Under the pieces are notes generated by a model. It saw only the letters and a list, made by a program, of their open reading frames with translations. It was not told the DNA's origin and searched no databases. A program made the translations under genes and the position numbers. This document shows, one piece after another, positions 2,767 through 21,138 of a stretch of DNA of 21,138 nt; position 1 is the stretch's first letter, and every line of letters starts with the position of its first letter. The DNA is from a virus. Location: IMG/VR virus record IMGVR_UViG_3300037395_000014, positions 1-21,138 of that record; one strand, 5' to 3'.

Positions 2767-5085
2767 TTGGCAACTGACAGAGACATCGCAATCGGGTTCC
2801 TTACGCGCGTTCTGCCTGCCGAGGGTCCCTACGCGCTTCGATCTCCATATAAGCCGGGCAAGGCGCCGAACCACGTAGAGTGGGCGGGCAATGTAACTGA
2901 GCTGTGGGACAAGATGTCGCAGCATGGTGACGTTAACTGCTTTTACTCTACAGCGGCTTTCAAGGATGACACGTCGCCAGATGCGGCCAATGTTCGGGCA
3001 AAGCGCACGTTCTACTTAGACGTAGAGGGAGACAAGGAACACTTTAAGAATGGTGCGGGGTATGATGGGCAGACCGCAGCCATAAAAGCGGTTATTGAGT
3101 TTTGTCAAGCTGTCAACCTGCCGTGGCCTGGTTTCGTACTATCTGGTGGCGGTGTGCATGCCTATTGGCCGCTCGACGGGGACATCAGCCCGGCAGTGTG
3201 GCAGCCATATGCGTCTGGCCTTAAGGCCGCGTGTAAGGAGAAGAAACTTATAATTGACCCAGCAATACCTGCTGACGCGGCTCGTATTCTGCGCTGTCCT
3301 GGTACGTTCAACTGCAAGAGGGAGCCTAAGACCGAGGTTACGATCCACGACGTTTTCTTCACGCTAGGCCCGTACAGCCTCGACGAGTTCGCCCCGCTAC
3401 TATCATATGCCCCAGAGGTTAAAGGGCTGCCAGCGGTCTCCCCAGAGGCCCGCTTTGAGGGCTCCGCCGCACTAAACGATCAGACTGCCGCGTATTATGG
3501 CGATGCCCTTGCCTCTATCCCGAACGATGACAGTGTGCCCTATGATACTTGGCTCAAGATCGGCATGGCCGTGTTTGAGCTTGGCTGGGGTGACGTGGGA
3601 CGCCAGATGTGGCATGACTGGAGCATAAAAGCGCCGAAACACAAGGAAGAGGAGTTTGACAACGCATGGAACGGATTTCTAAAATACCGGGAGACGCACC
3701 TGGACAACCTAGTGACGCCGGGCTCGCTGATCCACTTCGCCAAGGAAACGGGGTGGACAACCCCAGTTGGTATCGCGCCCCCGATATCTGCTACTGCCCC
3801 CTTTGTACCGCCGCCCGAGCTTTTGCAAAAGGCGGAGAAGGGGGACAGGTACGAGCTGCACAGCGCGAGGGTGAACGCGCAAGGTCCGCTAATGACGGGC
3901 AAGGACGGTAGCGGCTTCGCGGAGAACAAATGGCGTAACGCGACCTGGGCGCTTGTTAAGTTGGGTGTGCGCGGCCGCTGGGACGAGTTTTCAAACAACA
4001 GTGAAATCAAGTTTCCCGGCAGGCCGTGGGAACAAATTTCCAGCCGCACGGACAGCGACGCCAGACGCATGATAATGGAGGTGTGTTGTGGATCAGACCA
4101 AGGCAAGCATGCCGTCGAACAGGCTCTCGACGAACTCTGCGGTAACGTGGGGCGATATCATCCAATACGGGAACACTTACACGGACTTCGAGATTGGGAT
4201 GAAAAGCCCCGGCTGGACACCTGGCTCATTGATTACTGCCACGCTAGCGACACTCCTCTTAACCGATTTTATGGTGCCGCAGTCCTCGTCGCGGCTGTCC
4301 GCCGCGCACTTACCGACAGAATAATACGTTTTGACCACATGCTCGTACTAGAGGGTGGCACCGGCATAGGCAAAAGCTCTGTAGTCGAGATACTCGGGCG
4401 GGGCGCCGCGCCGGAGGGCTGGTATAAAAACCAAGAGATAAATTGGTTAGACCCGCGCTCCTCTGTAGAGGCGCTGCGCGGCGCCTGGTTCTACGAGTGG
4501 CCTGAGTTGAAGGGGCACGGCAAGCAGGCGGAGAACCACATCAAGAGCTGTTTGTCTAGTCCCATAGACAGCATACGTATGGCATACGATCGGAGGGTCA
4601 CTAGCTCGCCCCGGCGAGCCATACTTATCGCCACGACAAATTATGGCAGTGAGTACCTTACTGACCAGACGGGCAACCGGCGCTACTGGGTGGTAGACTG
4701 CGGTAGCAACAAGTTTAGGCTGGATGAACTGCGCCGGGATCGTGACCAGCTATTTGCTGAAGCACTGGTGTGGGAGAAGGAAGGGAGGATGGGCGCGTAT
4801 CTTGATACGCCCGAAGAGTTGGCGTCGGCGGAAAAAGCAGAACTTGAGCCTCGCACTACGGTGCCCCATTTAGTCGACTTCATCTCTCCCCTTACAAGCG
4901 GCGACGTGGAATTTCTAACGATGCACGACGTAAAGACTAGCACTTGGATGGCTAACCAAGGTGCGGCGAGGGATCAGGACATAGCTGCCGCGCTGCGCTG
5001 GCTTGGCTGGGAGCAAGACAAGTACAACAATTACAAGCTGCCAAATGGCGAACGGACGAGACGGTGGCGAAGGGTGGAAGCATGA
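2767..5085 (+). CDS. Primase-helicase (AEP primase, PriCT-2 and VirE-type SF3-like helicase)
   Basis: This 772-residue protein should prime and unwind DNA at the phage fork. I chose the TTG start because GGAGG lies about eight bases upstream and it follows the preceding stop; an ATG 54 bases earlier would overlap that gene. An archaeo-eukaryotic primase-like domain comes first: FYLDVE gives acidic D85 and E87, SGGGVHAYW has H131, and a third block has D164 and RCPGTFNCK. A PriCT-2-like region follows (WLKIGMAVFELGWG to the FAKETGW end). The C-terminal half matches the virulence-associated E family: Walker A EGGTGIGKSS at 529-538, Walker B WFYEWPEL with E577, and sensor-type ATTNYGSEYL and TGNRRYWVVD. 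Its TGA overlaps the polymerase start. All key motifs appear intact. Confidence 0.94.
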   Translation: MATDRDIAIGFLTRVLPAEGPYALRSPYKPGKAPNHVEWAGNVTELWDKMSQHGDVNCFYSTAAFKDDTSPDAANVRAKRTFYLDVEGDKEHFKNGAGYDGQTAAIKAVIEFCQAVNLPWPGFVLSGGGVHAYWPLDGDISPAVWQPYASGLKAACKEKKLIIDPAIPADAARILRCPGTFNCKREPKTEVTIHDVFFTLGPYSLDEFAPLLSYAPEVKGLPAVSPEARFEGSAALNDQTAAYYGDALASIPNDDSVPYDTWLKIGMAVFELGWGDVGRQMWHDWSIKAPKHKEEEFDNAWNGFLKYRETHLDNLVTPGSLIHFAKETGWTTPVGIAPPISATAPFVPPPELLQKAEKGDRYELHSARVNAQGPLMTGKDGSGFAENKWRNATWALVKLGVRGRWDEFSNNSEIKFPGRPWEQISSRTDSDARRMIMEVCCGSDQGKHAVEQALDELCGNVGRYHPIREHLHGLRDWDEKPRLDTWLIDYCHASDTPLNRFYGAAVLVAAVRRALTDRIIRFDHMLVLEGGTGIGKSSVVEILGRGAAPEGWYKNQEINWLDPRSSVEALRGAWFYEWPELKGHGKQAENHIKSCLSSPIDSIRMAYDRRVTSSPRRAILIATTNYGSEYLTDQTGNRRYWVVDCGSNKFRLDELRRDRDQLFAEALVWEKEGRMGAYLDTPEELASAEKAELEPRTTVPHLVDFISPLTSGDVEFLTMHDVKTSTWMANQGAARDQDIAAALRWLGWEQDKYNNYKLPNGERTRRWRRVEA

Positions 5086-6116
5086 GAACCCTCATTCTTG
5101 ACGCGGAAACATTCTACGCCCAGGACTTCACTTTGTCGCACATGACAAACGAGGAGTATGTGCGCGATCCTCGGTTCCAGACCCTTTGCCTCGGAGTAAA
5201 GGCGTTCGGCCTGCCTGATATGCTGATGTGCAGGGGGCCGGAGGAGGTAGCCAGGTGGTGTGCTGCGCAGGACTGGAGCGACATCGCGGCTGTCATGCAC
5301 CATGCCCAGTTTGACGGTTTCATACTTTCGGAGATTTATCATGTCCGTCCAGGTTTCATATTTGACACCCTCTCGATGGCTCACGCGGTTAATGGACCCC
5401 TCGAACCCGCTTCGCTCTCGGCCCTGGTGGCTAGGTGTGGCCTATCTGAGAAAACCGTTCCTTATAATTACTTCAAGGGAAAGCGATGGGAGCAGATGTC
5501 CGAGCAGCTACAGCAAGAGCTGTGCGACGGATGCGCACACGACTGCGAGCTTACCGAAGACATCTTCAAACGACTGGTACAAGATTTTCCCCGAGATGAA
5601 CTTGAGATCATAGACCAGACGGTGCGCATGTACACGGAGCCTCGCATGTGGGGCGATATAGAGCTGTTTGAAAAGCTTGCGCTAGAGGAGGAGGGGCGCA
5701 AGCGGGAGCTGCTCGCCGCGCTTAATGTGCCGCTGAAGGCCCTATCCTCTAACGCCACGTTTACCCGCCTGCTGGAGGCGTTTGGTGAAGAGGTGCCTAG
5801 CAAGCCTGGAGCTAAGGGGCCTATCCCTTGCGTGGCAGCATCGGACGCCTATATGATAGACAACATGGACCGGGATGACGCAGTGGGCCAGCTTATACGC
5901 TGCCGCATGGATGTCAAGAGTACCATACAAGAGACGCGCGCCGGACGCCTGGCGGGGATGGCCCGCCGCGGCCCGCTGCCGGTCTACCTGAAGTACGCCG
6001 CTGCCATGACCATGCGTTGGGGAGGCGGGGAGAAGACAAACATTCAGAACCTGCCCCATGATGGCCCGATGCGGTCGGGGCTTTGCGCGGAGAACCCTAA
6101 TGGAACAGTGGTCTGA
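5082..6116 (+). CDS. Family A DNA polymerase, N-terminal fragment (3'-5' exonuclease, thumb, start of palm)
   Basis: The ATG overlaps the primase stop (ATGA), with AAGGGTGG before it. The 344-residue product has a DnaQ-like proofreading domain: Exo I LILDAETF (D7, E9), Exo II HHAQFDGF (D78) and an Exo III-like GCAHDCELT (D154). In Exo III the usual Tyr four residues before the Asp seems to be Gly. The rest is thumb and early palm, ending with MRWGGGEKTNIQNLPHDGP, the conserved segment before motif A, then GTVV and a stop. Motifs A, B and C are missing here but lie on the ORF at 6310-7140. Together the two are 620 residues, a normal size for a short phage family A polymerase. The break falls inside the palm, not between domains. 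Confidence 0.94.
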   Translation: MRTLILDAETFYAQDFTLSHMTNEEYVRDPRFQTLCLGVKAFGLPDMLMCRGPEEVARWCAAQDWSDIAAVMHHAQFDGFILSEIYHVRPGFIFDTLSMAHAVNGPLEPASLSALVARCGLSEKTVPYNYFKGKRWEQMSEQLQQELCDGCAHDCELTEDIFKRLVQDFPRDELEIIDQTVRMYTEPRMWGDIELFEKLALEEEGRKRELLAALNVPLKALSSNATFTRLLEAFGEEVPSKPGAKGPIPCVAASDAYMIDNMDRDDAVGQLIRCRMDVKSTIQETRAGRLAGMARRGPLPVYLKYAAAMTMRWGGGEKTNIQNLPHDGPMRSGLCAENPNGTVV

Positions 6117-6270
6117 TAGGCTTACAATAGACGACGTGGAGGCTGTAATGATAAGCTGGAATGCGTATTTTAACATGTTGGTGCGACGCATGGTGGCTGA
6201 TGGCTGGCTGGTGGAGGATGCTATTGACGCGGCAAATGAGCAAATGAGAGCAATGGCGGAGAACCCAAAT
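6087..6270 (+). repeat. 15-nt near-direct repeats (6087-6101 and 6256-6270) bracketing the polymerase insert
   Basis: GCGGAGAACCCTAAT at 6087-6101 recurs as GCGGAGAACCCAAAT at 6256-6270, 169 bases apart with one mismatch. Both copies read Ala-Glu-Asn-Pro-Asn, the first in the polymerase N-fragment frame and the second in the frame of the 62-codon ORF. The first copy also holds the GGAG site for that ORF. This may be a duplication footprint of an insertion event or chance. Confidence 0.55.
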
Positions 6271-6288
6271 ATCAAAAAACTGCCGTAA
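6100..6288 (+). CDS. 62-aa ORF inserted between the two polymerase fragments
   Basis: The ATG overlaps the last 17 bases of the polymerase N-fragment, with GGAG seven bases upstream. The product is mainly one long amphipathic helix (DDVEAVMISWNAYFNMLV, VEDAIDAANEQMRAMAENP) with a basic end (IKKLP). It has no HNH, GIY-YIG or LAGLIDADG motif, so it is not a visible homing endonuclease. It shares the frame of the downstream polymerase fragment and is separated from it by one TAA plus seven sense codons. It could be a free-standing small protein, a bridge that helps the fragments pair, or part of a small intervening element. The function is unknown. Confidence 0.5.
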   Translation: MEQWSDRLTIDDVEAVMISWNAYFNMLVRRMVADGWLVEDAIDAANEQMRAMAENPNIKKLP

Positions 6289-6309
6289 AATTTTTTGGAG
6301 AAACACGGA

Positions 6310-7140
6310 ATGGGTAACAGCCTCTTCGCCCTAGATTTCAGCCAGATCGAGTACCGCATCCTGTGCGGGCTGGCGGGGCAGCAGGACAAGCTGGACGCGC
6401 TTGCCGCGGGCCGGGACCTGTACTGCGAGTTCGGAACCAAGCTGTTCAAGCGTCCCATCACCAAGGCAGATCGCAGCGAGCGTCAGTTCAGCAAGACCGA
6501 GGGCATCCTGTCGTGTGGCTATGGCAAGGGCAAGGACAAGGCGGCGACCCAGGCGAAGGCCAAGGGCTTTGACTTCCCCCGCGAGGTGACTGATGCCACG
6601 GTGGACGAGTACCGGGCGTCGCATCCCCGCGTAGTGCAGTTCTGGAAGACGTGTGACGCGGCCCTGCCACATATTGCCTCAGGGGAAGACTATCAAATTG
6701 TCAATACCCCCTTGACATTTTCAAACAAACACCTCATACTACCAAATGGACTGAAGTGCCGGATGGAGCTGGCATGGGCGCCGGAGGTTAAGTCATGGTT
6801 CAGGAAAGTTTACAGAGGCCCGATGGCCGCGTCCGGGGACAGTGTGGATACTCTGCGGAGCAAGGGCTATACGAAATACTGGGGTGGGGGTTTGACAGAG
6901 TTTACCTGCCAAGCGCTATCACGGGTGCGCCTCTCCGAGTTGATGTTACACGCGCGCCGCTCCCTGGGCATACGCCCTGTGTTTTTAGTCCACGACGAGT
7001 ACGTAGGCCTCGCACCGGATGACCAGTGCCAGGAGATACTCGACACGCTTATAGAGTTTGCCAGGCGCCCGTCACCGTGGTGGCCTGATGGACCTCCGTT
7101 TGACGCGGAGGGTATGGTTATGAAGAGGTACGCACACTAG
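6310..7140 (+). CDS. Family A DNA polymerase, C-terminal fragment (palm and fingers catalytic motifs)
   Basis: I chose the ATG at 6310 because GGAG (6297-6300) lies nine bases before it; an in-frame TTG at 6295 would lack this. The 276-residue product carries all polymerase catalytic motifs: motif A ALDFSQIEYR (D9), motif B R58-x3-K62 leading to GYG (Y71), and motif C VHDE (D229). It starts just before the motif A strand, so it needs the upstream fragment for exonuclease, thumb and part of the palm. The K62 to Y71 spacing is nine residues, one more than Lys758-Tyr766 of Klenow or Lys522-Tyr530 of T7 polymerase. The first 350 bases are far more GC-rich than what comes before or after. Confidence 0.94.
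   Translation: MGNSLFALDFSQIEYRILCGLAGQQDKLDALAAGRDLYCEFGTKLFKRPITKADRSERQFSKTEGILSCGYGKGKDKAATQAKAKGFDFPREVTDATVDEYRASHPRVVQFWKTCDAALPHIASGEDYQIVNTPLTFSNKHLILPNGLKCRMELAWAPEVKSWFRKVYRGPMAASGDSVDTLRSKGYTKYWGGGLTEFTCQALSRVRLSELMLHARRSLGIRPVFLVHDEYVGLAPDDQCQEILDTLIEFARRPSPWWPDGPPFDAEGMVMKRYAH
6712..6740 (+). promoter_or_regulatory. Sigma-70-like promoter candidate inside the polymerase C-fragment
   Basis: A perfect TTGACA -35 box (6712-6717) is followed, after exactly 17 bases, by CATACT (6735-6740), which matches TATAAT at four of six positions. It lies inside coding sequence in a locally AT-richer stretch, and would drive the genes after 7141. It may be fortuitous. Confidence 0.22.
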
Positions 7141-12084: not shown

Positions 12085-13377
12085 TCAGTATTTGAACCCT
12101 GAAGCGTAGCCATGCTTCTGCAACTCGGGGATGAACTTAGACAGTTTGTCCCCGATGTCGTTCCTGTATAACACGTCGCCGGGTATGTTGAGTTGCTTTA
12201 GCGTGCGCATGGCATTCTCCTTCGCGCCCGTTACAGTGTCCGACACCCCGGTGACGACCATAGCATACTGTCCGGCCGTGGCCCACTCGGTCTCACGGCC
12301 TTTCTGGAGGTGATAAGGATGGAGCTTCTTTCTATTGTTGGCGGTGACACCGTAGACTGGAAAGTCTGTGACAAGTTCGAGGGGGCTTGGCTCGTATGGG
12401 AACGGGCTCATGCACATACTGATGCCGAGACTAATCGCTTCCTGTTTGAACGGGGATTTCACTCCCTTGCCCCGCGCGAGATCATACATCCAAGCGATTG
12501 GGTCGCCGTCCATAAGGGCGAGCTGTATCTGAAGCGATGGGTAGCCGAACCGAGTGGTGAACTCTAACGGCCAAGGTGTACCATGATCGTCGATGATGCA
12601 GTTAACGTCGATGTCTCCGAGAAACCCGATCTTGACCAGCTCGTCCTCAAGAGGTTTAAGCATCTTGTTGGCGAGCTTAGAGCACTTTGTTATCATAAGA
12701 ACGGTGCCCATCTCGCCCGTAGTCGTGCCGATCTCTCCTGGCATGAGCTTCTTGTGCTCGAAGTTCTCTTCCCACCCGCCGGAGAACCCGTCGCGCCCCA
12801 CATAACCCCCTACAGCGAACTCCGTCCCTGGCACAAAGTCCTGTAGGATGAACTCGCTTTTAATCTTCCCTTCCTTCTTCCACTTACCGAGCATGAACAG
12901 CATGTCTTCCGGCCCCTTGGAGCAGTAGGATAGGGACTTATCTGCGTCGCCGCAAGGTTTGGAAACCAGCCGCACGTCGTCCCGCTTCTTGACATATGCC
13001 ACGGCCTGCTCATATGTGGTGCATAACTGTGTAGGAGGGCATTTGATACCATGACGCTCAAGCACCTTCATCCCGAGAAGACGGTCCGTCTCCCACGCTG
13101 CGCCTATAGCGTTCGCACCGAAGACGACTTTTTCGGGGTGTTCGGCCCGGAAATGGTCGAGGACCCGGAGGTTCTTACAGTTGTCAGCCAGCACCGTCAT
13201 GTCCGCCCAGCGGAGCCACGCCTTGAAGTCACCTGTGCGTTTGACGAGACCTTTGCCGACTAGGCAGTAGTGTCGCTCGTTAGGGTTGACATAGTAGACC
13301 ACCTCGTGTTTCGCCTCCTGCGCTCGCAGGGCCAGGTCTAGCATATCGCCGAACGGATCGACAAACAGTACCTTCAT
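12085..13377 (-). CDS. PurD-like ATP-grasp enzyme (phosphoribosylamine-glycine ligase homologue), 430 aa
   Basis: I chose the ATG at 13377, with GGGGAGA six bases upstream, over a GTG at 13392. An N-terminal Rossmann-like part (MKVLFVDPFGDMLD) precedes an ATP-grasp fold: FGANAIGAAWETDRL, K140 in RLVSKPCGDADKS, ILQDFVPGTEFAVGGY, GEMGTVLM (221-227) and LEFTTRFGYPSLQIQ (E272, R276). The order and length match PurD, the GAR synthetase of purine synthesis. However, the EFNxRFGDPE signature of PurD reads EFTTRFGYPS, so metal- or substrate-site residues have changed. Phage ATP-grasp proteins are often annotated as PurD without proof. It closes the leftward structural operon and overlaps a small acidic ORF upstream. 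It could make a nucleotide precursor or ligate an amino group to another substrate. Confidence 0.88.
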   Translation of the reverse strand: MKVLFVDPFGDMLDLALRAQEAKHEVVYYVNPNERHYCLVGKGLVKRTGDFKAWLRWADMTVLADNCKNLRVLDHFRAEHPEKVVFGANAIGAAWETDRLLGMKVLERHGIKCPPTQLCTTYEQAVAYVKKRDDVRLVSKPCGDADKSLSYCSKGPEDMLFMLGKWKKEGKIKSEFILQDFVPGTEFAVGGYVGRDGFSGGWEENFEHKKLMPGEIGTTTGEMGTVLMITKCSKLANKMLKPLEDELVKIGFLGDIDVNCIIDDHGTPWPLEFTTRFGYPSLQIQLALMDGDPIAWMYDLARGKGVKSPFKQEAISLGISMCMSPFPYEPSPLELVTDFPVYGVTANNRKKLHPYHLQKGRETEWATAGQYAMVVTGVSDTVTGAKENAMRTLKQLNIPGDVLYRNDIGDKLSKFIPELQKHGYASGFKY

Positions 13378-13448
13378 TCTGGCTCTCCCCACGGGTCAAG
13401 AATAAGCTCGTCGTCATCCTCGTCCCAGTCGTCCGGTTCAGTGAACAT
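13374..13448 (-). CDS. Acidic 24-aa peptide coupled to the ATP-grasp gene
   Basis: AGGAG (minus strand of 13455-13459) precedes two adjacent ATGs; the one at 13448 has the better spacing. The peptide is extremely acidic (DDWDEDDDE) and ends LDPWGEPE. Its TGA overlaps the ATG of the PurD-like gene, so translation should be coupled. The DPW triplet also recurs in the large upstream virion protein. It may be a leader peptide, a small partner protein or a substrate of the enzyme. Real translation is unproven. Confidence 0.42.
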   Translation of the reverse strand: MFTEPDDWDEDDDELILDPWGEPE

Positions 13449-13460
13449 CATGGGCTCCTG

Positions 13461-16400
13461 TTAGTGTGGCTTCCTAGGTCTAGGTTTAGTTGAATACGGC
13501 TCGTGTGTCAAGCCTGGGCCTAGTGGCAGCAGTGTCTCCGCCCAGTTCTTGGGCTTAGGCTTCTGCCCCTCTACCTGCTCTCTGGTTTTCTCCGGCAGGA
13601 ACCCTTCAAGCTGCCCGAATATGGGTATGTCTTTGAGCAGCTTACCTATCAACTGCCCGTTGGTCTCCGCGGTGCTGCCCACCTGCTGTGCCTTGCGCCC
13701 GGAGTTCCTTATCTTCCCCTCGGTGTGTGTGGCCCAGTCAGCGAACATAGACGCTAGTGGGGTAAGTGACTGGCCTATAAGTGAGGCTGCCGCCCAGGGA
13801 GTTACTGTACCGCGTACCACGTCTGTCGCAGCCTGCATCACAGCCATGGCTCCGTGACGGGTCATCATGGCCCGCTGGTCACCCGTCATCTCTTTGAACT
13901 TCTCGTCTATCCATGGCATGGCTATGGATAGCCCTAGCCCCAGGAGCACAGCTTGCTTCAGCGCCCGCTGTGCCTCGAACGCAGACTTAGCAGCTCCAGC
14001 CTTATCACCGCCTACCGCCCTCTGTGTCGCCTGCGCTGCCTTGAACGCGGCCTCCAGCGGCTTCATGGACTGCTGTATGGTGAAGTAGTGATACCTGGCA
14101 AAGTTATTCACCAGCTTACCCAGCTTGTCTTCAGTGAACGCCGATGGCGCGCGAGATATCTTAGCAGCCAGCTCTCCCATCTCTGGGTGTGGTACCTCGG
14201 TAGGTATGCGGTACGGGGGGACGGCCTTGTGGGCCTGCCTGATGGCGTCATCCAGCCCCATGGCCTTGTGCAGCGGCCCGGACTGCATGTAGTCACGCAC
14301 CTGCGTCAGCATCATAAGGTCCTGGGCGTACCCCATGGCGTCGTGAGACGCTTTCCACCACGCCGCAACAGGTGCCGCGGCCTTGCCTGCTAGGCTAGGT
14401 GCGGGCTTCTCCTCTCCTGACATGAGGCGCACCATGTCCTCCATGGTAGTGTAGGCTTGCGCCGCCTTGTCGCTAGACGTCCAGAGAGCCCCGCCGTGCT
14501 CCAGCACCTTGCGGTAGAACCCGTCGTTGCGGCCCTGCATGTCCTGTACGGCCTTCAGGAAGTTCTTCGGCGACGACAGGTGTATGTCGGACAGGAAGCC
14601 CACACCTACGTTGAGTATGTGGGGGATAGGGATGCCGAACATGGTACGGGTGAGGAACTGGTTAGCCGCTACAGCCTGGTCTATGAGGCCCACCTTGCTA
14701 GTGTCAATACCGCCCCAGCGGTCCAGCGCGGCGGCTAGCCTAGGCTCGACATAGGTGCCTTGCATACCGGGGAACTCGGTGGTACGCCACCCCTTGCTCT
14801 TCCCCACGTTCTCCCCGCCAGCCCAGCCGCGCTCCATCATCTCGGCCTTGAGAGCCTTGGTGTCTGCCATCTCCCGGATGGACCTCTCTAGGTGTATCTC
14901 GGCCAGCTTGTAGGCGACCAGGGGGTCCTTGATGTACTTCTCCGGGGTTGGCAGGTCCTTGGTGGCCTCCTCTATCTCTCCTATGCGGGCTGTCTTGGTG
15001 TCGTAGCTGCCCTCAAATATGGCGCGGTCTCTATCATTCTCGGGCCGCACTAATGTGAAGTTCTTAGTCTTGGGGTTCATGCGCACCACGGCGCGCTCCC
15101 CGTTAGGTGCCTCTATGGCGTGATACACCCGCTGGTTCAGGCTCATGTCATCGGACTTGCGTGTCATGCCGCGGCCACGCCTGCCCGAGATGGGGTCCAT
15201 GGCCTCTTGCTGGTCTAGGTTTAGCTGCCTGTCCGCGTATCGCTCTGGTATGCGTGGCATGTAGTTCTTGTCGAACTCGGCCTTCATGGCCTCTATGTCG
15301 TCGTTGGAGTAGCCACCTTCTTGCCTCGCCATGGCTACCCGTTGGTTGTACAGGTCGTACACTTTCTCCTGCAGGGGCACGATTAATTTCTCGTGTAGGG
15401 CCTCCTGCGCGGGGGTGAGTGGCACAGAGGTATCACCCTGGGACTTAGCCAGTAGCGCGTTAACCGTGTTAGGGTCCTTCAGCTCAGGGTGTTCCTTCAC
15501 AGCCCCCTGTAGGAACTCGTTGGCCTGCTGTAAGTTCGACTGGTGTGCACCCTCTCTCTGGTAGTGGCTAAGGTCTATAGCGTTCACGTCCTCTCGGGTG
15601 ACTGGTCCTGTAGCCTTGGGGGCTTGCTCTGCCCCTACGGCGGGGCGCTGGCTAAACCTGGAGTGTCCGTTAACGAAGTCAGCTAAATCCTCCGGCGACT
15701 TTATAAGCCCAGCATCATAGGCGGGCTTGGCGTCTGTCAATACCTTATCTTTAACACCGGCAAACGTATTCTTGCCGGACTGCAATGATTTGAATAGTCC
15801 CTCGTATAAGTTTGAAGTCATACTCTTGCCCATACCTGACAAGTTTACAGAGCCACTCCCAGTAGCTGGTGGTGCTTCTGCGGGGGCTGCTGGCTGAGGG
15901 GTTTCGGCGGCTGGTATGGTAGTAGCGGAGGCATCCTTGGAGGGCACTCCAGGCTTCTCCCACGCAGCCGGGTTTTCTGCTCCGATGAAGCCTCCTGTCT
16001 TCTCGAACGCTCGGCCCATGGCGCCTAGCGGTCCAGTCACTAGCGGCGTCAGCGCACCTGCGACGGAGCCTGCCTGCCCGAGTAGCTTGCTGGGTATGTC
16101 GCTGTGCGCCCGCGAGTAGTCTTGCCCCTGCTGGTAGCCCTCAGCCATCTGCCGCGGTATATCAGTGATCGGCTCCAGCGTATCGGCTACTTCCGCGCCA
16201 ACCTGCTTGGCGGACGGTAGCGAGGCATAGGCGCTCTTGATGTCGTCGACCAGGCCGCCGCCCTCGGCTGGCTTGCCCTGCGGCTTGAACGCTGCCCACG
16301 GGTCTGTCTTGTCTGTAGCAGGGGCCTGCGGCTTGAACGCTGCCCACGGGTCTGTCTTGTCTGTAGCAGGGGCCTGCGGCTTGAACGCTGCCCACGGGTC

Positions 16401-17120
16401 TGTCTTACTGTCCAAAGTTTGTATACTATTTCGGACAGGAGCCTGTTGTGTTGACGTGGGGGCGGTGGGGGCCGTCACTGCCTGTGTGGTAAACTTGGGC
16501 ATCCACTTGTTGACGAAGGCGGATGCAGGCGCGCTTGGGTCGCCACCGTTAGCCGATATGTGTCGCGCCGGGACCAGGGAGCCTGCGGGCTTGTCAGGGT
16601 TCTGCAACATGCTGAGAGCGCCCGCGGCCCCCTGCTGGTGTGCTAAGTACAGCTCGTGAGGCGCAGGCTCCCGGCCCAGTGCCCCCTTTAATGTGTCGTA
16701 GTTCTCCCGTGTACCCCTCTCGAAGCGTTCATCCTCGGTTCCCTGCCCGCCCCACCCAGGCCCCATTTGATAGGTGCCATGATACTGTGAGCCTGGCCGG
16801 TCTGGTATGGTGCTACCCCGGCTTTCTATAGCAGCCGTTGACTTCTTGTACTGGTCGAAGTTTAAGCTGCCCCACTGGTTATCGGGCTGCTGTGCGGGCT
16901 GCTGTGCGGGCTGCTGTGCGGGCTGCTGTGCGGGCTGCTGTGCGGGCTGCTGTGCGGGCTGCTGTGCGGGCTGCTGTGCGGGCGCTTGCTGAGGTGCCTG
17001 TGGCTTGAATACGGACCATGGGTCAGCGGCCGGTGCTGTCGCTGCACCTCCAAATTTCTGTACTACGTCGGCAGGCTCCCCCTGCTGCGTAGTGTATTTA
17101 GCCCATGGGTCGTCTGTCAC
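13461..17120 (-). CDS. Internal virion (ejection) protein with lysozyme-like domain, 1219 aa
   Basis: The start is GTG in a GTGA overlap with the upstream gene. A disordered N-terminus carries DPWAKY (4-9), DPWSVFKPQ (33-41) and eight AQQP units (to about 80). Residues 85-210 form a lysozyme/transglycosylase-like domain: AAIESRG with E99 as probable acid, YHGTYQMGPGWG, and LYLAHQQGAAGA. Three DPWAAFKPQ repeats follow (241-281). The long remainder is helical, with a hydrophobic region near the C-terminus (LLGLGLSIAMPWIDEKF), as in proteins that enter the cell envelope during DNA ejection. The size and layout fit the large internal proteins of podoviruses, which locally degrade peptidoglycan. 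This is family inference; the catalytic type is not certain. Confidence 0.88.
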   Translation of the reverse strand: MTDDPWAKYTTQQGEPADVVQKFGGAATAPAADPWSVFKPQAPQQAPAQQPAQQPAQQPAQQPAQQPAQQPAQQPAQQPDNQWGSLNFDQYKKSTAAIESRGSTIPDRPGSQYHGTYQMGPGWGGQGTEDERFERGTRENYDTLKGALGREPAPHELYLAHQQGAAGALSMLQNPDKPAGSLVPARHISANGGDPSAPASAFVNKWMPKFTTQAVTAPTAPTSTQQAPVRNSIQTLDSKTDPWAAFKPQAPATDKTDPWAAFKPQAPATDKTDPWAAFKPQGKPAEGGGLVDDIKSAYASLPSAKQVGAEVADTLEPITDIPRQMAEGYQQGQDYSRAHSDIPSKLLGQAGSVAGALTPLVTGPLGAMGRAFEKTGGFIGAENPAAWEKPGVPSKDASATTIPAAETPQPAAPAEAPPATGSGSVNLSGMGKSMTSNLYEGLFKSLQSGKNTFAGVKDKVLTDAKPAYDAGLIKSPEDLADFVNGHSRFSQRPAVGAEQAPKATGPVTREDVNAIDLSHYQREGAHQSNLQQANEFLQGAVKEHPELKDPNTVNALLAKSQGDTSVPLTPAQEALHEKLIVPLQEKVYDLYNQRVAMARQEGGYSNDDIEAMKAEFDKNYMPRIPERYADRQLNLDQQEAMDPISGRRGRGMTRKSDDMSLNQRVYHAIEAPNGERAVVRMNPKTKNFTLVRPENDRDRAIFEGSYDTKTARIGEIEEATKDLPTPEKYIKDPLVAYKLAEIHLERSIREMADTKALKAEMMERGWAGGENVGKSKGWRTTEFPGMQGTYVEPRLAAALDRWGGIDTSKVGLIDQAVAANQFLTRTMFGIPIPHILNVGVGFLSDIHLSSPKNFLKAVQDMQGRNDGFYRKVLEHGGALWTSSDKAAQAYTTMEDMVRLMSGEEKPAPSLAGKAAAPVAAWWKASHDAMGYAQDLMMLTQVRDYMQSGPLHKAMGLDDAIRQAHKAVPPYRIPTEVPHPEMGELAAKISRAPSAFTEDKLGKLVNNFARYHYFTIQQSMKPLEAAFKAAQATQRAVGGDKAGAAKSAFEAQRALKQAVLLGLGLSIAMPWIDEKFKEMTGDQRAMMTRHGAMAVMQAATDVVRGTVTPWAAASLIGQSLTPLASMFADWATHTEGKIRNSGRKAQQVGSTAETNGQLIGKLLKDIPIFGQLEGFLPEKTREQVEGQKPKPKNWAETLLPLGPGLTHEPYSTKPRPRKPH
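16279..16406 (-). repeat. 48-bp tandem repeat, 2.7 copies, coding
   Basis: Two complete and one partial (32-base) copies occur at 16279-16326, 16327-16374 and 16375-16406, with no mismatch seen. Each unit encodes 16 residues containing TDPWAAFKPQAPATDK. Perfect identity suggests a recent duplication. The repeat keeps the reading frame. Confidence 0.9.
16884..16979 (-). repeat. 12-bp tandem repeat, 8 perfect copies, coding AQQP
   Basis: GGGCTGCTGTGC on the plus strand is repeated eight times without a mismatch. On the minus strand it encodes Ala-Gln-Gln-Pro units in the linker between the DPW motifs and the lysozyme-like domain. Copy-number change would alter linker length in steps of four residues without a frameshift. 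Confidence 0.93.
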
Positions 17121-18493
17121 GGCACCCTGCCAGTGCGCCCATCAGGTAGTATTATCGGAGTACCCGAGGGCAGCTTGCTCGCTTCATCGGGGCTGCTTAC
17201 TTTTACTGGTTGTCCAGCGCCTGCTGGAGCTGCGGCACCCGGCGGACCCTTCTGTGCTTCATCAGATGCAGCCTGCGTAGCCTTGCTATCGTTAGCGTTA
17301 GCCCCCGCGTATGACTTAGCTGTGATGCTTTTGTAGAAGTCCTCGCTTTCCTTACGAGCGTCAGCTAATATTGCTTCCCTTTGCTTGGCGTCAGCAGTGC
17401 TGTGATACCTCTCCATCAAGCTGGCCTGGTCAGACGTGTGCTGGTCTAGGCGAGCCTGCTGCGCCGCCGATAGCCCGTTGAACTTGCGGTCCTGGTTGGC
17501 CTTGCTGTCTGCCGCCTTCTGCCCGTCGATGCCCTCTTTGGCTTTGTTGTGTCGCTCGCGTTCCGCCTCCGCCATAGACTGGTTGTGTGCATGTCCCGCC
17601 TGTACCTGGCCCGTCCACGCTCCGGTGTGCGCTTTTAACTGCTCCCCATACTGCTCATTCATCTTGCTCATAACCTGGTCGACGAGGCCGGGGCTCGTGC
17701 CAATCCCACCTCCCGCACCTGGCTGCATAGACCCGCCGACGGTGCCCTGCCGCAGCTTCTCTGCATAGTCCATGGCGTCTTCGTATGTAGGCGCCTTGGG
17801 CATCGGGTTGGCCTTGCTGAAGGCTGCGTAGTCGTTGAGCGGGCTTACCATCCACGGGGCTTGGGCGAAGTTACCGCCACCGCCACCGCCACCGCCACCG
17901 CCACCGCCGTAGCCTTGCTGCGGTAGCTGTGGGGCGCCGAGGGTCTGGCCCATCTGAGCCTGCGGGAAGACGCGCTGTCCGGTGGCGCCAGAGGGAGGAG
18001 CAGACCCCTGACCTCCACCGGACCCTCCACCTTGCGGCGGAAGCTGATCTGCAGTTTGTCCGCTCGGCATGGGGCCTTGCATGCGCCCTGCGTTGACATA
18101 GTTATTCCGCGGGCCAGCAGGAGCTGGCTGGTTGAACTGTGGGGTGGGGGGTAGCCCCTGTGGTTGCTGCCCGCCTTGTGGTGGGATTATGTTTGATGGG
18201 TTCGTAGCGCCCTGATTACCAGACAGCAGGGCGCCGCCCACTGCCCCTTGCGGCGACTGAAACGTGCCTGGCGTTATGTTCGACTGCTGTTGCCCCGGCA
18301 CCATGCCTGGCATGGGCATACCTGCTGATGGGTTGCCCGCGGCCTGCGCCGGGTCTGCGCCGCCGTGTAGCTGTGCGACTAGGCCGATGGTTTTCTGTAG
18401 CAGCTTCTGGAATGTGGGGTTGCCGAAGATGCCGTTGTTGCCGTCGCCGCCACCGCCACCGCCACCACTGTCTTGTCCGCTTGTGTCGCTCAT
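17117..18493 (-). CDS. Low-complexity internal virion protein, 458 aa
   Basis: GGGAG precedes the ATG. The N-terminal half is Gly/Pro/Gln-rich, with poly-Gly at residues 10-16 and a run of 12 Gly in the middle. Then comes a helical, charged region (YEDAMDYAEKLRQGT, MAEAERERHNKAKEGIDG, AKQREAILADARKESEDFY). The C-terminus reads LPSGTPIILPDGRTGRVP, a tail I recognise in large internal or structural phage proteins. It lies between the Ala/Gly-rich virion protein and the lysozyme-containing protein and overlaps the latter (GTGA), so the three are probably co-made and co-packaged. No enzymatic motif is seen. The exact virion position is unknown. Confidence 0.83.
   Translation of the reverse strand: MSDTSGQDSGGGGGGGDGNNGIFGNPTFQKLLQKTIGLVAQLHGGADPAQAAGNPSAGMPMPGMVPGQQQSNITPGTFQSPQGAVGGALLSGNQGATNPSNIIPPQGGQQPQGLPPTPQFNQPAPAGPRNNYVNAGRMQGPMPSGQTADQLPPQGGGSGGGQGSAPPSGATGQRVFPQAQMGQTLGAPQLPQQGYGGGGGGGGGGGGNFAQAPWMVSPLNDYAAFSKANPMPKAPTYEDAMDYAEKLRQGTVGGSMQPGAGGGIGTSPGLVDQVMSKMNEQYGEQLKAHTGAWTGQVQAGHAHNQSMAEAERERHNKAKEGIDGQKAADSKANQDRKFNGLSAAQQARLDQHTSDQASLMERYHSTADAKQREAILADARKESEDFYKSITAKSYAGANANDSKATQAASDEAQKGPPGAAAPAGAGQPVKVSSPDEASKLPSGTPIILPDGRTGRVP
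17874..17909 (-). repeat. CCGCCA hexamer tract coding 12 glycines
   Basis: Five CCGCCA units and one CCGCCG unit form a 36-base tract that encodes twelve Gly on the minus strand. Loss or gain of a unit changes the run by two Gly and keeps the frame. Confidence 0.85.
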
Positions 18494-18494
18494 A

Positions 18495-19304
18495 TCATGC
18501 TCCCGTAGGTGAGCTATTGGAGTTGCTGTATGTCAGGGTGCCGCCGCTCGGCGCCGTGACACTCTCGCTAAGGCTGGATAGCAGGCCCTGTATCATCTGC
18601 CCCGCCGACGCCAGGTTACTGCCCTGTAGCCCGTAGGCCTGTAGCTGCCCGGAGAGCGCCCCCAGGTCGAGCTGGCCCGCCTGGTTGATAAGTGTGCCGC
18701 CTGCGACCACGCCGCTCTCATACTGGTTTTGCAACGCTGTCGCTGTAGCTGCGCCCGTGGCCTCGCGGCCTACCTGCGCTGTCTGCCAGGCGTTAGCGAA
18801 GTTGCCCGTGGTGGCGCCCTGCACTTCCGACCCGTAGGGGGTGTTAGCCACACCTGACTGCGCCGAGGCAGCACCCGCCGCGCTCTGTGCCTGATTGAGA
18901 TAGTAGTTGTACGCTGTAGTCATAGGATCGAATGCGGTAGCTAGGGCCTGGTTGGCGTAGCCTAGGTCGCCTGAGAACGCTGTGGACAGCCCCGTGCCAA
19001 GTCCCTGAAGCTGCGACGCGAGCCCGCCTACCTGGCTAGCTGTAGCGTTAGCTGTGCTGACTGCGCCCGCGCCACTCGCCCCTAGCTGGCCTGCGATGCC
19101 CTCTACCTGTCCGGCATAGCCCGCCGCCTGGGGGTTGGTCATGGTGGCCCCGCCACCCGAGCTGACAGGGGTTGATGCGCCGCCCAAGCTGCCGACCGCG
19201 CCCCCGATAGCGTACTCGTTCGCGTTGTACTGGGGGTTGGGTACGGTCCACGGCACCCCGGAGAACGAGTTGGCATTGCCAAAAGGTTGAATTGAAGTAG
19301 CCAT
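18495..19304 (-). CDS. Ala/Gly-rich virion protein, 269 aa
   Basis: TAGGAGA precedes the ATG by five bases. The protein is rich in Ala, Gly, Ser and Gln with helical stretches (ALATAFDPMTTAYNYYLNQA) and a conserved-looking block QSGVANTPYGSEVQG, which I recognise from internal or tail-associated proteins of podoviruses. There is no signal peptide or enzymatic motif. It stands directly after the nozzle-like gene and before the low-complexity protein, in the usual position of the smallest internal virion protein. Packaging and ejection with its neighbours is inferred. Confidence 0.82.
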   Translation of the reverse strand: MATSIQPFGNANSFSGVPWTVPNPQYNANEYAIGGAVGSLGGASTPVSSGGGATMTNPQAAGYAGQVEGIAGQLGASGAGAVSTANATASQVGGLASQLQGLGTGLSTAFSGDLGYANQALATAFDPMTTAYNYYLNQAQSAAGAASAQSGVANTPYGSEVQGATTGNFANAWQTAQVGREATGAATATALQNQYESGVVAGGTLINQAGQLDLGALSGQLQAYGLQGSNLASAGQMIQGLLSSLSESVTAPSGGTLTYSNSNSSPTGA

Positions 19305-19313
19305 AATATTCTC

Positions 19314-21138
19314 CTAGTTCCCAGGGGCGCGGGAAGTGAAACCGGACTGACTGACGGGTAGTTGGAACGAGCCGAGCCGTACCCCAGCCTGCGCTGTAGT
19401 GCTGACGCTAACCGACGCCATGTTGAACACAATGGGACTGGGCCATGTGATGTCGAACGGGGCGAGAAACGTGGCCGCACTCTCCGTGTAGCCAGTGTAT
19501 ATGGCCGAGCTACCTAGCACGTTGCCGTTCACATCTTGCACTGACACGTTGTATAGGTTGCCCCCTGCTGGTACGCCGAAGTAGGCTAGTGAGCGCACTG
19601 CGGATAGCTCGCTCATGTCGTTGCGGTCCGGTATCAGGGCAGACGTAGACACACACTGCATGGGGCTGCCTAGCTCCGTGTAGGAGCTAGCCGCTGTCGG
19701 CACCAGGCTAAAGTTGTACAGCCCCGTCACTGTAGACGAGGTGTAGGGAGACACGAAGAACGAGTTGCCCAGGCTGTTTATGAGCCCCACAGGGAAGGTG
19801 TGCGGGCCATGCCAGCACTGCCGTGTGATATCGTACACCCACGTCTCTATGTTGCTCGTGACACTATTAAACATCCCGAAACACAGGTTGCTTGCGTTGT
19901 AAGCGCCAGCTATTCGGGACAGCGGTGAGGCATATACGAAGGGGGAGGGCTTACCCGAGCCGCCGTAGCCGATGGGGGGCTGCATGTGCCCCTGCAGGTC
20001 TATGTAGCGCAGCCCATCAGGGGCAGCGAAGAACAGACCTAGGGGTGTGGAGATGACACTGTTGGGCGCCGTGGTGCTCACGTTAGCGTTCATCTTCTGG
20101 AGTGACAGGTTACTCGTACCCGAGCCACTCGCGCCCTCCACGTCTCCAGTTATCTGGAACACGTCAGGCGATCCCTGTCCTGCGGACTTGAACACGTACA
20201 GCGCCTGCACCACGCCGCCCGTGGTCAAGTTGGTCAGCGACAGACAGCCCATGCCTACAAGGGGCGTTAGGTCTCCGAAAGTCAGTATGACGCCCGCGAC
20301 CGCGGCGCTCCGCGAGAGCGGTCCACTAGCTACGCCTAGCACGTCGGAGAACTCGACAGAGGGGGGCGTGTTGCCACCAGGGTTCAAGGCGAACCACGCG
20401 CGCCCATTAAACTGTGTGATCCACACGGGCACTGATGGTAAAGGGTTGGTAAGCGTGTTCTGCGCGGTGTAGGTAAGCGCCGCTATCGTGGGGTAATAGG
20501 TTATGACTATGACGCCGCCGCCGCCAGCTCCGCCGCCGCCTGCCGCACTACCGCCGCCCGCACCACCACTTGAGCCGCTGGACTTCTCGCCACCGCCACC
20601 GCCACCGCCACCACCTGGCCCGCCGCCGCCGCCACCGCCGCCAGCTCCATAGCCACTAGCCGACCCGCCAGCGGCACCGTAGCCCGTACCGCCCCCGCCA
20701 CCGTTCTGCTGACTGCCTGCACCGTAGCCACCGCCACCGCCACCTGCCGCACCTGCACCTGCACCGCCTACGCCCGCTAATCCAGCAGGACCCGCTGCTG
20801 CGCCGCCCGCGCCGCCCGCGCCGCCCGCACCACCGTTGCCGCCCGCGCCGCCTGTACCATAATAATTAGCGCCGCCGCCGCCGCCCGCCACGCCACCGCC
20901 GCCAGGCGCGCCGCCGCCGCCAGGTGAATATCCTGTACCATAATACGCGCCGCTAGACCCCCCGCCAGCCTGCAATGTAGTGGGAGTGTTGAACCACGTT
21001 GGGCCACCGCCCGTGCCAATAAGATACGGGCAAGAAGCCCCCGGAGTTAGAGCAAGGTTGGTATAATACGCCCACCCGGCGCCTGTGCCTCCCGTGCCGC
21101 CCGTGCCACCGTTGCCGCCCGCGCCACCTGAGCCGCCC
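19314..21138 (-). CDS. Tail protein: Gly-rich region fused to a nozzle-like β-propeller (partial, N-terminus beyond window)
   Basis: The reading frame stays open to the window edge, so about 607 C-terminal residues are visible and the true start is outside. The first 190 are almost pure Gly/Ala with rare Tyr (GGYGAGSQQNGGGGGTGYG), interrupted near the edge by a Trp/Tyr-containing strand segment (WAYYTNLALTPGAS). The rest is β-rich with propeller-like blades (VWITQFNGRAWFALNPGG, PLGLFFAAPDGLRYIDLQG, ETWVYDITRQCWHGPHTF), like the tail tubular B/nozzle proteins of podoviruses. Its first-in-order place before the internal virion proteins fits that. The Gly-rich part resembles the glycine-rich domains of phage fibers or adhesins. 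The nozzle call is fold-level inference. Confidence 0.83.
   Translation of the reverse strand, partial: GGSGGAGGNGGTGGTGGTGAGWAYYTNLALTPGASCPYLIGTGGGPTWFNTPTTLQAGGGSSGAYYGTGYSPGGGGAPGGGGVAGGGGGANYYGTGGAGGNGGAGGAGGAGGAAAGPAGLAGVGGAGAGAAGGGGGGYGAGSQQNGGGGGTGYGAAGGSASGYGAGGGGGGGGPGGGGGGGGGEKSSGSSGGAGGGSAAGGGGAGGGGVIVITYYPTIAALTYTAQNTLTNPLPSVPVWITQFNGRAWFALNPGGNTPPSVEFSDVLGVASGPLSRSAAVAGVILTFGDLTPLVGMGCLSLTNLTTGGVVQALYVFKSAGQGSPDVFQITGDVEGASGSGTSNLSLQKMNANVSTTAPNSVISTPLGLFFAAPDGLRYIDLQGHMQPPIGYGGSGKPSPFVYASPLSRIAGAYNASNLCFGMFNSVTSNIETWVYDITRQCWHGPHTFPVGLINSLGNSFFVSPYTSSTVTGLYNFSLVPTAASSYTELGSPMQCVSTSALIPDRNDMSELSAVRSLAYFGVPAGGNLYNVSVQDVNGNVLGSSAIYTGYTESAATFLAPFDITWPSPIVFNMASVSVSTTAQAGVRLGSFQLPVSQSGFTSRAPGN
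20507..21138 (-). repeat. GC-rich triplet-like repeats coding Gly-rich region
   Basis: CCGCCA, CCGCCG and CCGCCC type hexamers dominate this stretch and encode long Gly/Ala runs in the tail protein. The repeats are imperfect and broken by Tyr, Thr and Ser codons. Low complexity makes assembly here less reliable, and the region continues past the window edge. Confidence 0.7.

Follow-up and report, generated by a model that had tools for sequence, protein, structure and literature searches.

PurD (GAR synthetase) stands in purine synthesis between PurF, which supplies PRA, and PurN or PurT, which uses GAR. PurD-like proteins outside this role have been described in haloarchaea, where the 'extra' proteins rrnAC0307 and Hlac_1553 were judged not to be PurD because they lack GARS_N, residues of the metal site and the R[LF]GDPE Asp, as the passages on these two proteins state (PMC3261824). 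Among phages, LUZ24-like members such as UFV-P2 carry sets of amidoligase, glutamine amidotransferase and ATP-grasp genes (PMC3890496), and viral purD has been reported as an auxiliary metabolic gene in snow and ocean viromes (PMC11097641, PMC11360552). A literature search, with the main 2009 amidoligase review outside its range, found no phage PurD-like virion enzyme.

The window, that is, the whole 21,138-nucleotide stretch of viral DNA analysed (IMG/VR record IMGVR_UViG_3300037395_000014), holds an intact minus-strand frame of 430 codons that we call the PurD-like gene. Its ATG is favoured over a GTG five codons upstream, since it is the ATG that corresponds to the first residue of the other family members. 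As originally predicted, the gene closes a minus-strand structural operon, adjoining the gene for a 1219-aa virion-type protein. The features of the operon are as follows.

12085..13377 (minus strand): PurD-fold ATP-grasp protein, 430 aa; ATG at 13377, coding 13377-12088, stop codon 12085-12087.
13374..13451 (minus strand): acidic mini-ORF of 25 codons (MMFTEPDDWDEDDDELILDPWGEPE), whose TGA overlaps the PurD-like ATG.
13461..17120 (minus strand): virion-type protein of 1219 aa, encoded directly upstream of the PurD-like gene; its N-terminal part resembles a transglycosylase.
17117..18493 (minus strand): 458-aa low-complexity protein of the same operon.
18495..19304 (minus strand): 269-aa protein of the same operon (cluster c2).
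19314..20975 (minus strand): probable stabilisation/tail protein (cluster c10), the first structural gene in the window, its frame open to the window edge.

The 458-aa protein, which matches nothing in Pfam or PHROGs, is a probable internal virion protein. Among the genes that lie three or four places upstream of the PurD-like gene in relatives, cluster c2 is the most frequent. The window copy of the c10 protein has no Pfam match, and a gene at a similar place in MW202796 is annotated 'stabilization protein'. A long glycine-rich stretch lies on the N-terminal side of this stabilisation-type protein (~20400-21137, minus strand), open to the window edge. The succession of small, mid-size and large proteins is similar to that of the T7 internal-core genes 14, 15 and 16, and for this reason we term the large upstream protein ejection-type; judged from gene order it is probably an ejection (internal virion) protein, directly supported by a weak PHROG transglycosylase match (9e-5). 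It also contains in-frame repeats at ~16240-16420 (minus strand), where KTDPWAAFKPQAPATD occurs in three copies, and closer to its N-terminus there is a run of QQPAQQPA units. The mini-ORF is a possible translational coupler and is not conserved in relatives. Promoter and terminator scans around the PurD-like gene gave no matches above chance, and no RNA elements or tRNAs were found in the window.

Replication genes (VapE-type primase/helicase, family A polymerase, SNF2-type helicase) lie on the plus strand and run towards the PurD-like gene. The polymerase is split in the window (5064-7140, plus strand) into an exonuclease-side frame at 5064-6116 and a polymerase-side frame at 6295-7140; a short frame at 6058-6288 overlaps the join, which is flanked by near-identical 14-base pieces (cggagaaccc[ta]aat) at 6088 and 6257. 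Relatives such as L004, L020 and L049 have one continuous frame, and the break could be a split gene, an intron or an insertion.

Homology to PurD is beyond chance. The window protein matches Pfam GARS_A at E=6e-7, above the gathering score, and PDB PurD 2xcl at E=3e-14, while the family profile of 59 relatives matches PDB PurD 2yw2 at E=3e-30. The AlphaFold (AF2) model (mean pLDDT 95.7, pTM 0.92) has the PurD fold over its whole length, with the ATP-grasp A/B and C domains. In a structure comparison with the PDB, PurD takes every one of the top 15 ranks (TM up to 0.78, identity 17-22%), and biotin carboxylase and PurK rank after these, at a distance. GARS_A and GARS_C are found in all 59 family proteins at E<=0.01.

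Searched against IMG/VR, the window protein gave 149 stretches with relatives and a Paraburkholderia prophage protein gave 128; these are separate, possibly overlapping counts that should not be added. The viral contigs with relatives include Paraburkholderia-type prophages. A genome scan for the family yielded seven loci, three of them Paraburkholderia prophage-type regions and four metagenome-bin contigs, and the GenBank phage MW202796.1 carries the gene without annotation (39% identity; 42140-43450, equal to L081:20001-21311). No match to the family was found in PHROGs, and no close relative among predicted viral structures (BFVD). Across the genomes of 150 relatives of one prophage host, the family profile gave the prophage copy 648 bits and no cellular PurD more than 118, with nothing between. 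By these sequence scores the phage proteins are a discrete family, apart from cellular PurD, and purely cellular relatives are rejected on the seven-locus result and the lack of intermediates among the 150 genomes.

The family was aligned with 12 PurDs from related host genomes, a narrow sample. Common to both are K140, K147, E186, K209, E272, R276 and a C-terminal RxDIG. Four of these (K140, K147, E272 and R276) align with PurD K143, K151, E284 and R288 and are invariant or nearly so in the family, and the window protein thus has the two ATP-binding lysines, the acidic metal ligand and the substrate arginine of an ATP-grasp enzyme. The PurD elements GGREHA, GPEAPLxxGI, YSPAP, and the Asp and Glu of GDPE are replaced or missing, and Aquifex, Neisseria and Bacillus PurD (PDB alignments) show the same differences from the family where aligned. 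At the N-terminus, DxxGxxLDxxxR stands in place of the GGREHA loop, and GARS_N, the domain with the GGGGREHA-type loop, was matched by none of the 59 family proteins. The PurD-type order of motifs that had been predicted therefore holds for the A and C domains and breaks down at the N-terminus. Three segments concern us further.

12703..12774 (minus strand): loop region, residues 202-225 (WEENFEHKKLMPGEIGTTTGEMGT), related to PurD DHKR...GPNTGGMGAYSPAP.
12586..12618 (minus strand): strand GDIDVNCIIDD, residues 254-264, with D257 invariant and N259 near-invariant.
12535..12564 (minus strand): signature EFTTRFGYPS, residues 272-281, replacing PurD EFNxRFGDPE.

In the loop region, the YSPAP part of the PurD GPNTGGMGAYSPAP loop is missing and Gly is changed to Glu at residue 222. 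The altered signature was read correctly in the original prediction and is no peculiarity of the window, since every one of the 82 proteins in the first comparison conforms to the consensus E-[FW]-T-x-R-x-G-[WY]-P. Glu272, Thr274, Arg276, Gly278 and Pro280 are invariant in this set, and residue 279, at the place of the PurD Asp, is always Trp or Tyr; prophage members read EWTMRDGWP. The host PurD residues at these places are E284, N286, R288, G290, D291, P292 and E293. The PurD signature R-[LF]-G-D-P-E-x-[EQIM] (PS00184) is absent, RxG[WY]P without the Asp standing there in all members tested. An alignment of 59 diverse family proteins has 43 invariant columns, and the median dN/dS over 55 pairs from 17 prophage-type sequences is 0.059, so the gene is under purifying selection. 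Family-wide invariance makes the altered motif the rule of a constrained family and, with dN/dS at about 0.06, rules out sequence decay as its cause.

What the signature says about metal binding is another matter. The premise that Glu and Asn of this segment bind metal in ATP-grasp enzymes has to be narrowed, the Asn of ExN not being universal: in host proteins, the ExN place is Ala in PurK (EMAPRP) and Ser in PurT (EVSPRP). PurK and PurT are active enzymes, so Ala or Ser at this place is compatible with ATP-grasp activity, and the change from Asn to Thr by itself gives no sign of new metal chemistry. A second difference lies 5' of the signature in the frame, where PurD has Tyr and Gly in place of D257 and N259, both of which are new with respect to PurD. 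A short profile alignment sets N259 against the metal-site Glu of PurK; D257 is two residues before it, so that N259 and not D257 aligns with the canonical metal acid. Given the tolerance of Ala and Ser at the ExN place and the position of N259, the better reading of the sequences is that the metal site was remodelled rather than lost, with D257 and N259 as candidate participants.

We think it rather probable, reasoning from sequence, that the protein is an active ATP-dependent ligase with substrates other than those of PurD, acting late in infection. It would be a catalytically competent PurD-fold enzyme that has departed from purine synthesis but still follows the PurD scheme, in which Mg-ATP is bound, a carboxylate is phosphorylated and its acyl group goes to an amine. 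The substrates would differ from phosphoribosylamine and glycine, because the PurD elements for these are replaced by residues equally conserved in the phage family. The enzyme would be made late, often by translational coupling to the large ejection-type virion protein, as an accessory of podovirus-like phages, and would work during the late phase, either on virion (ejection) proteins or jointly with them. Against this, ATP-grasp paralogues can be inactive, and the change from Asn to Thr removes a metal ligand of PurD; co-transcription with virion genes indicates timing, not target. The two leading options for the target are a virion protein and a small molecule, each a narrower form of the active-ligase reading.

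As a virion-protein amide ligase, the enzyme would attach some group, for instance an amino acid, to one of the ejection or tail proteins of its own operon, alongside a GNAT and an Asp/Asn-hydroxylase; this we put forward tentatively. Of 60 loci, 29 have a 4-bp overlap between the start codon of the PurD-like gene and the stop of the large upstream frame, and five more an overlap of 1 bp; the gap is 20 bp or less in 40 of the 60, in line with the expectation that the gene is encoded with virion genes. The gene also lies at the end of a cassette whose order is like that of T7 genes 13-16. Protein-modifying enzyme families occur in the same cassette at many loci: where the sequence is long enough to tell, 26 of 41 loci have a GNAT, an Asp/Asn beta-hydroxylase or both upstream, and all 52 loci of Burkholderiaceae-type prophages have the hydroxylase. 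The window itself has neither, however, and some near relatives without the PurD-like gene (L200, L204, L227) also have GNAT, so that shared descent may be part of the association. Asp/Asn beta-hydroxylase-like 2OG oxygenases were seen in structural operons at L033:130-1944, L022:3185-3769 and L087:4732-5478, with two in L033; in other phages their place is taken by a GNAT or a cupin-like protein.

The distribution of the gene bears on the same proposal. Among the loci found by a search with one family of upstream protein, the PurD-like gene is present at 33 and missing at 40 that have room for it downstream. On a tree of 49 upstream proteins, presence and absence change seven times, and at least six of the changes are forced by well-supported branches; whole-record searches of 21 negatives, several of them fragments, found no PurD-like gene anywhere. 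From this patchiness, the gene is an accessory function with a fixed position. Its repeated loss while the upstream protein stays speaks against a virion-protein target, and since phages with homologous upstream proteins do without it, the ejection protein has no strict need of it. In addition, the upstream proteins have diverged strongly (within one family they score 25-31% to the first sequence, and between families they are barely alike) whereas the enzyme keeps at least 39%, and a conserved acceptor site is not obvious. A frame of 115-150 aa follows instead in six relatives without the gene; four of these frames are mutually similar and look like another small gene of the window, and no analogous enzyme that might serve as a replacement was seen among them by eye.

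The enzyme could equally possibly be a late maker or modifier of small molecules, for instance of a cell-envelope or osmolyte-like peptide or of a molecule packaged in the capsid, a reading to which we give a minority weight. To our knowledge, the PurD-fold enzymes so far known all have small-molecule substrates; patchy gain and loss would fit a metabolic role dependent on host or niche, and lysis-type genes adjoin the PurD-like gene in some loci. On the other hand, no other pathway gene is consistently linked, and the gene is coupled to a virion gene, not to those for lysis.

More speculatively, and somewhat improbably in our estimate, the family may have been recruited from purine synthesis to form an amide bond on DNA-ejection proteins, or to be packaged with them, making up with GNAT and Asp/Asn-hydroxylase a set that chemically matures the ejection apparatus.

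Loss of catalysis, leaving a structural or regulatory protein of the virion or its assembly, is unlikely. Replacement of the ExN Asn, loss of the GDPE Asp and the virion-gene neighbourhood would suit such a protein, but K140, K147, E272 and R276 have stayed invariant or nearly so, a new Asn stands at the place of the PurK metal Glu, and host PurT and PurK themselves have Ser and Ala at ExN.

A true but divergent GAR synthetase, an auxiliary metabolic gene raising purine supply in infection, is very unlikely. It would account for the fold and domain order, the common ATP-grasp core and the C-terminal RxDIG, and viral purD genes have been reported in that capacity (PMC11097641, PMC11360552). Yet the window protein scores 74.2 bits with the NCBIfam purD equivalog (TIGR00877), far below the cut-off of 288, and GARS_N and RFGDPE are absent in all members tested. 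Nor is there a genomic link to purine synthesis: PurF and PurN gave no match in any of 28 phage records (40-79 kb), where control genomes did, and the gene sits with virion genes, not early metabolic genes. A PurD-level match of their own was found in 149 of the 150 genomes related to the prophage host. The equivalog score, signatures and missing partners rule out an ordinary purD auxiliary gene, and bear out the earlier claim that the protein is no ordinary PurD.

Modification of a DNA base or nucleotide, which had also been suggested, is highly improbable and gained no support: the acceptor of PurD is a phosphosugar amine, but the gene is located with the late genes, outside the replication module, and in three phage genomes, complete or nearly so, the 25 Pfam families met most often serve replication, capsid, portal/adaptor and lysis functions and include none for DNA modification (11 further families lay outside this view).

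A PurD paralogue whose active site bears a new, fixed signature, and which in many phages is tied start to stop to an ejection-type gene, is a tractable lead to a late phage reaction, and since Paraburkholderia prophages carry the gene, it can be pursued in cultured lysogens. The reported viral purD auxiliary genes (PMC11097641, PMC11360552) may include this family, and those called by domain matches may not concern purines; members of the family are likely to receive a wrong purine-gene label.

Of the known systems, the LUZ24-like sets resemble the family in being phage-encoded ATP-grasp enzymes with no assigned target, but their ATP-grasp protein has 291 aa and is encoded in an early (positive-strand) module (PMC3890496), and the PurD-like family has no PHROG or close BFVD match. 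The haloarchaeal rrnAC0307 and Hlac_1553, likened here by their description, received a non-PurD verdict on the same kind of grounds; they are encoded in archaeal genomes, and the passages on them report no phage context (PMC3261824). PurK and PurT share the Ala or Ser at ExN followed by Arg-Pro (EMAPRP, EVSPRP; compare EFTMRP in most phage members), and the Asn of the phage family stands at the metal-Glu place of PurK; they differ in that their fold match is weaker than that of PurD, with a short profile alignment to PurK and no membership at the sequence level. PurD itself (TIGR00877; GARS_N/GARS_A/GARS_C) is matched by the family in its whole-length fold, GARS_A and GARS_C homology, ATP-grasp core and RxDIG. 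In contrast to PurD, to which identity is ~20%, the family falls below the equivalog cut-off without GARS_N, GGREHA and GDPE, and has ExT for ExN, new D257 and N259, and virion genes as neighbours.
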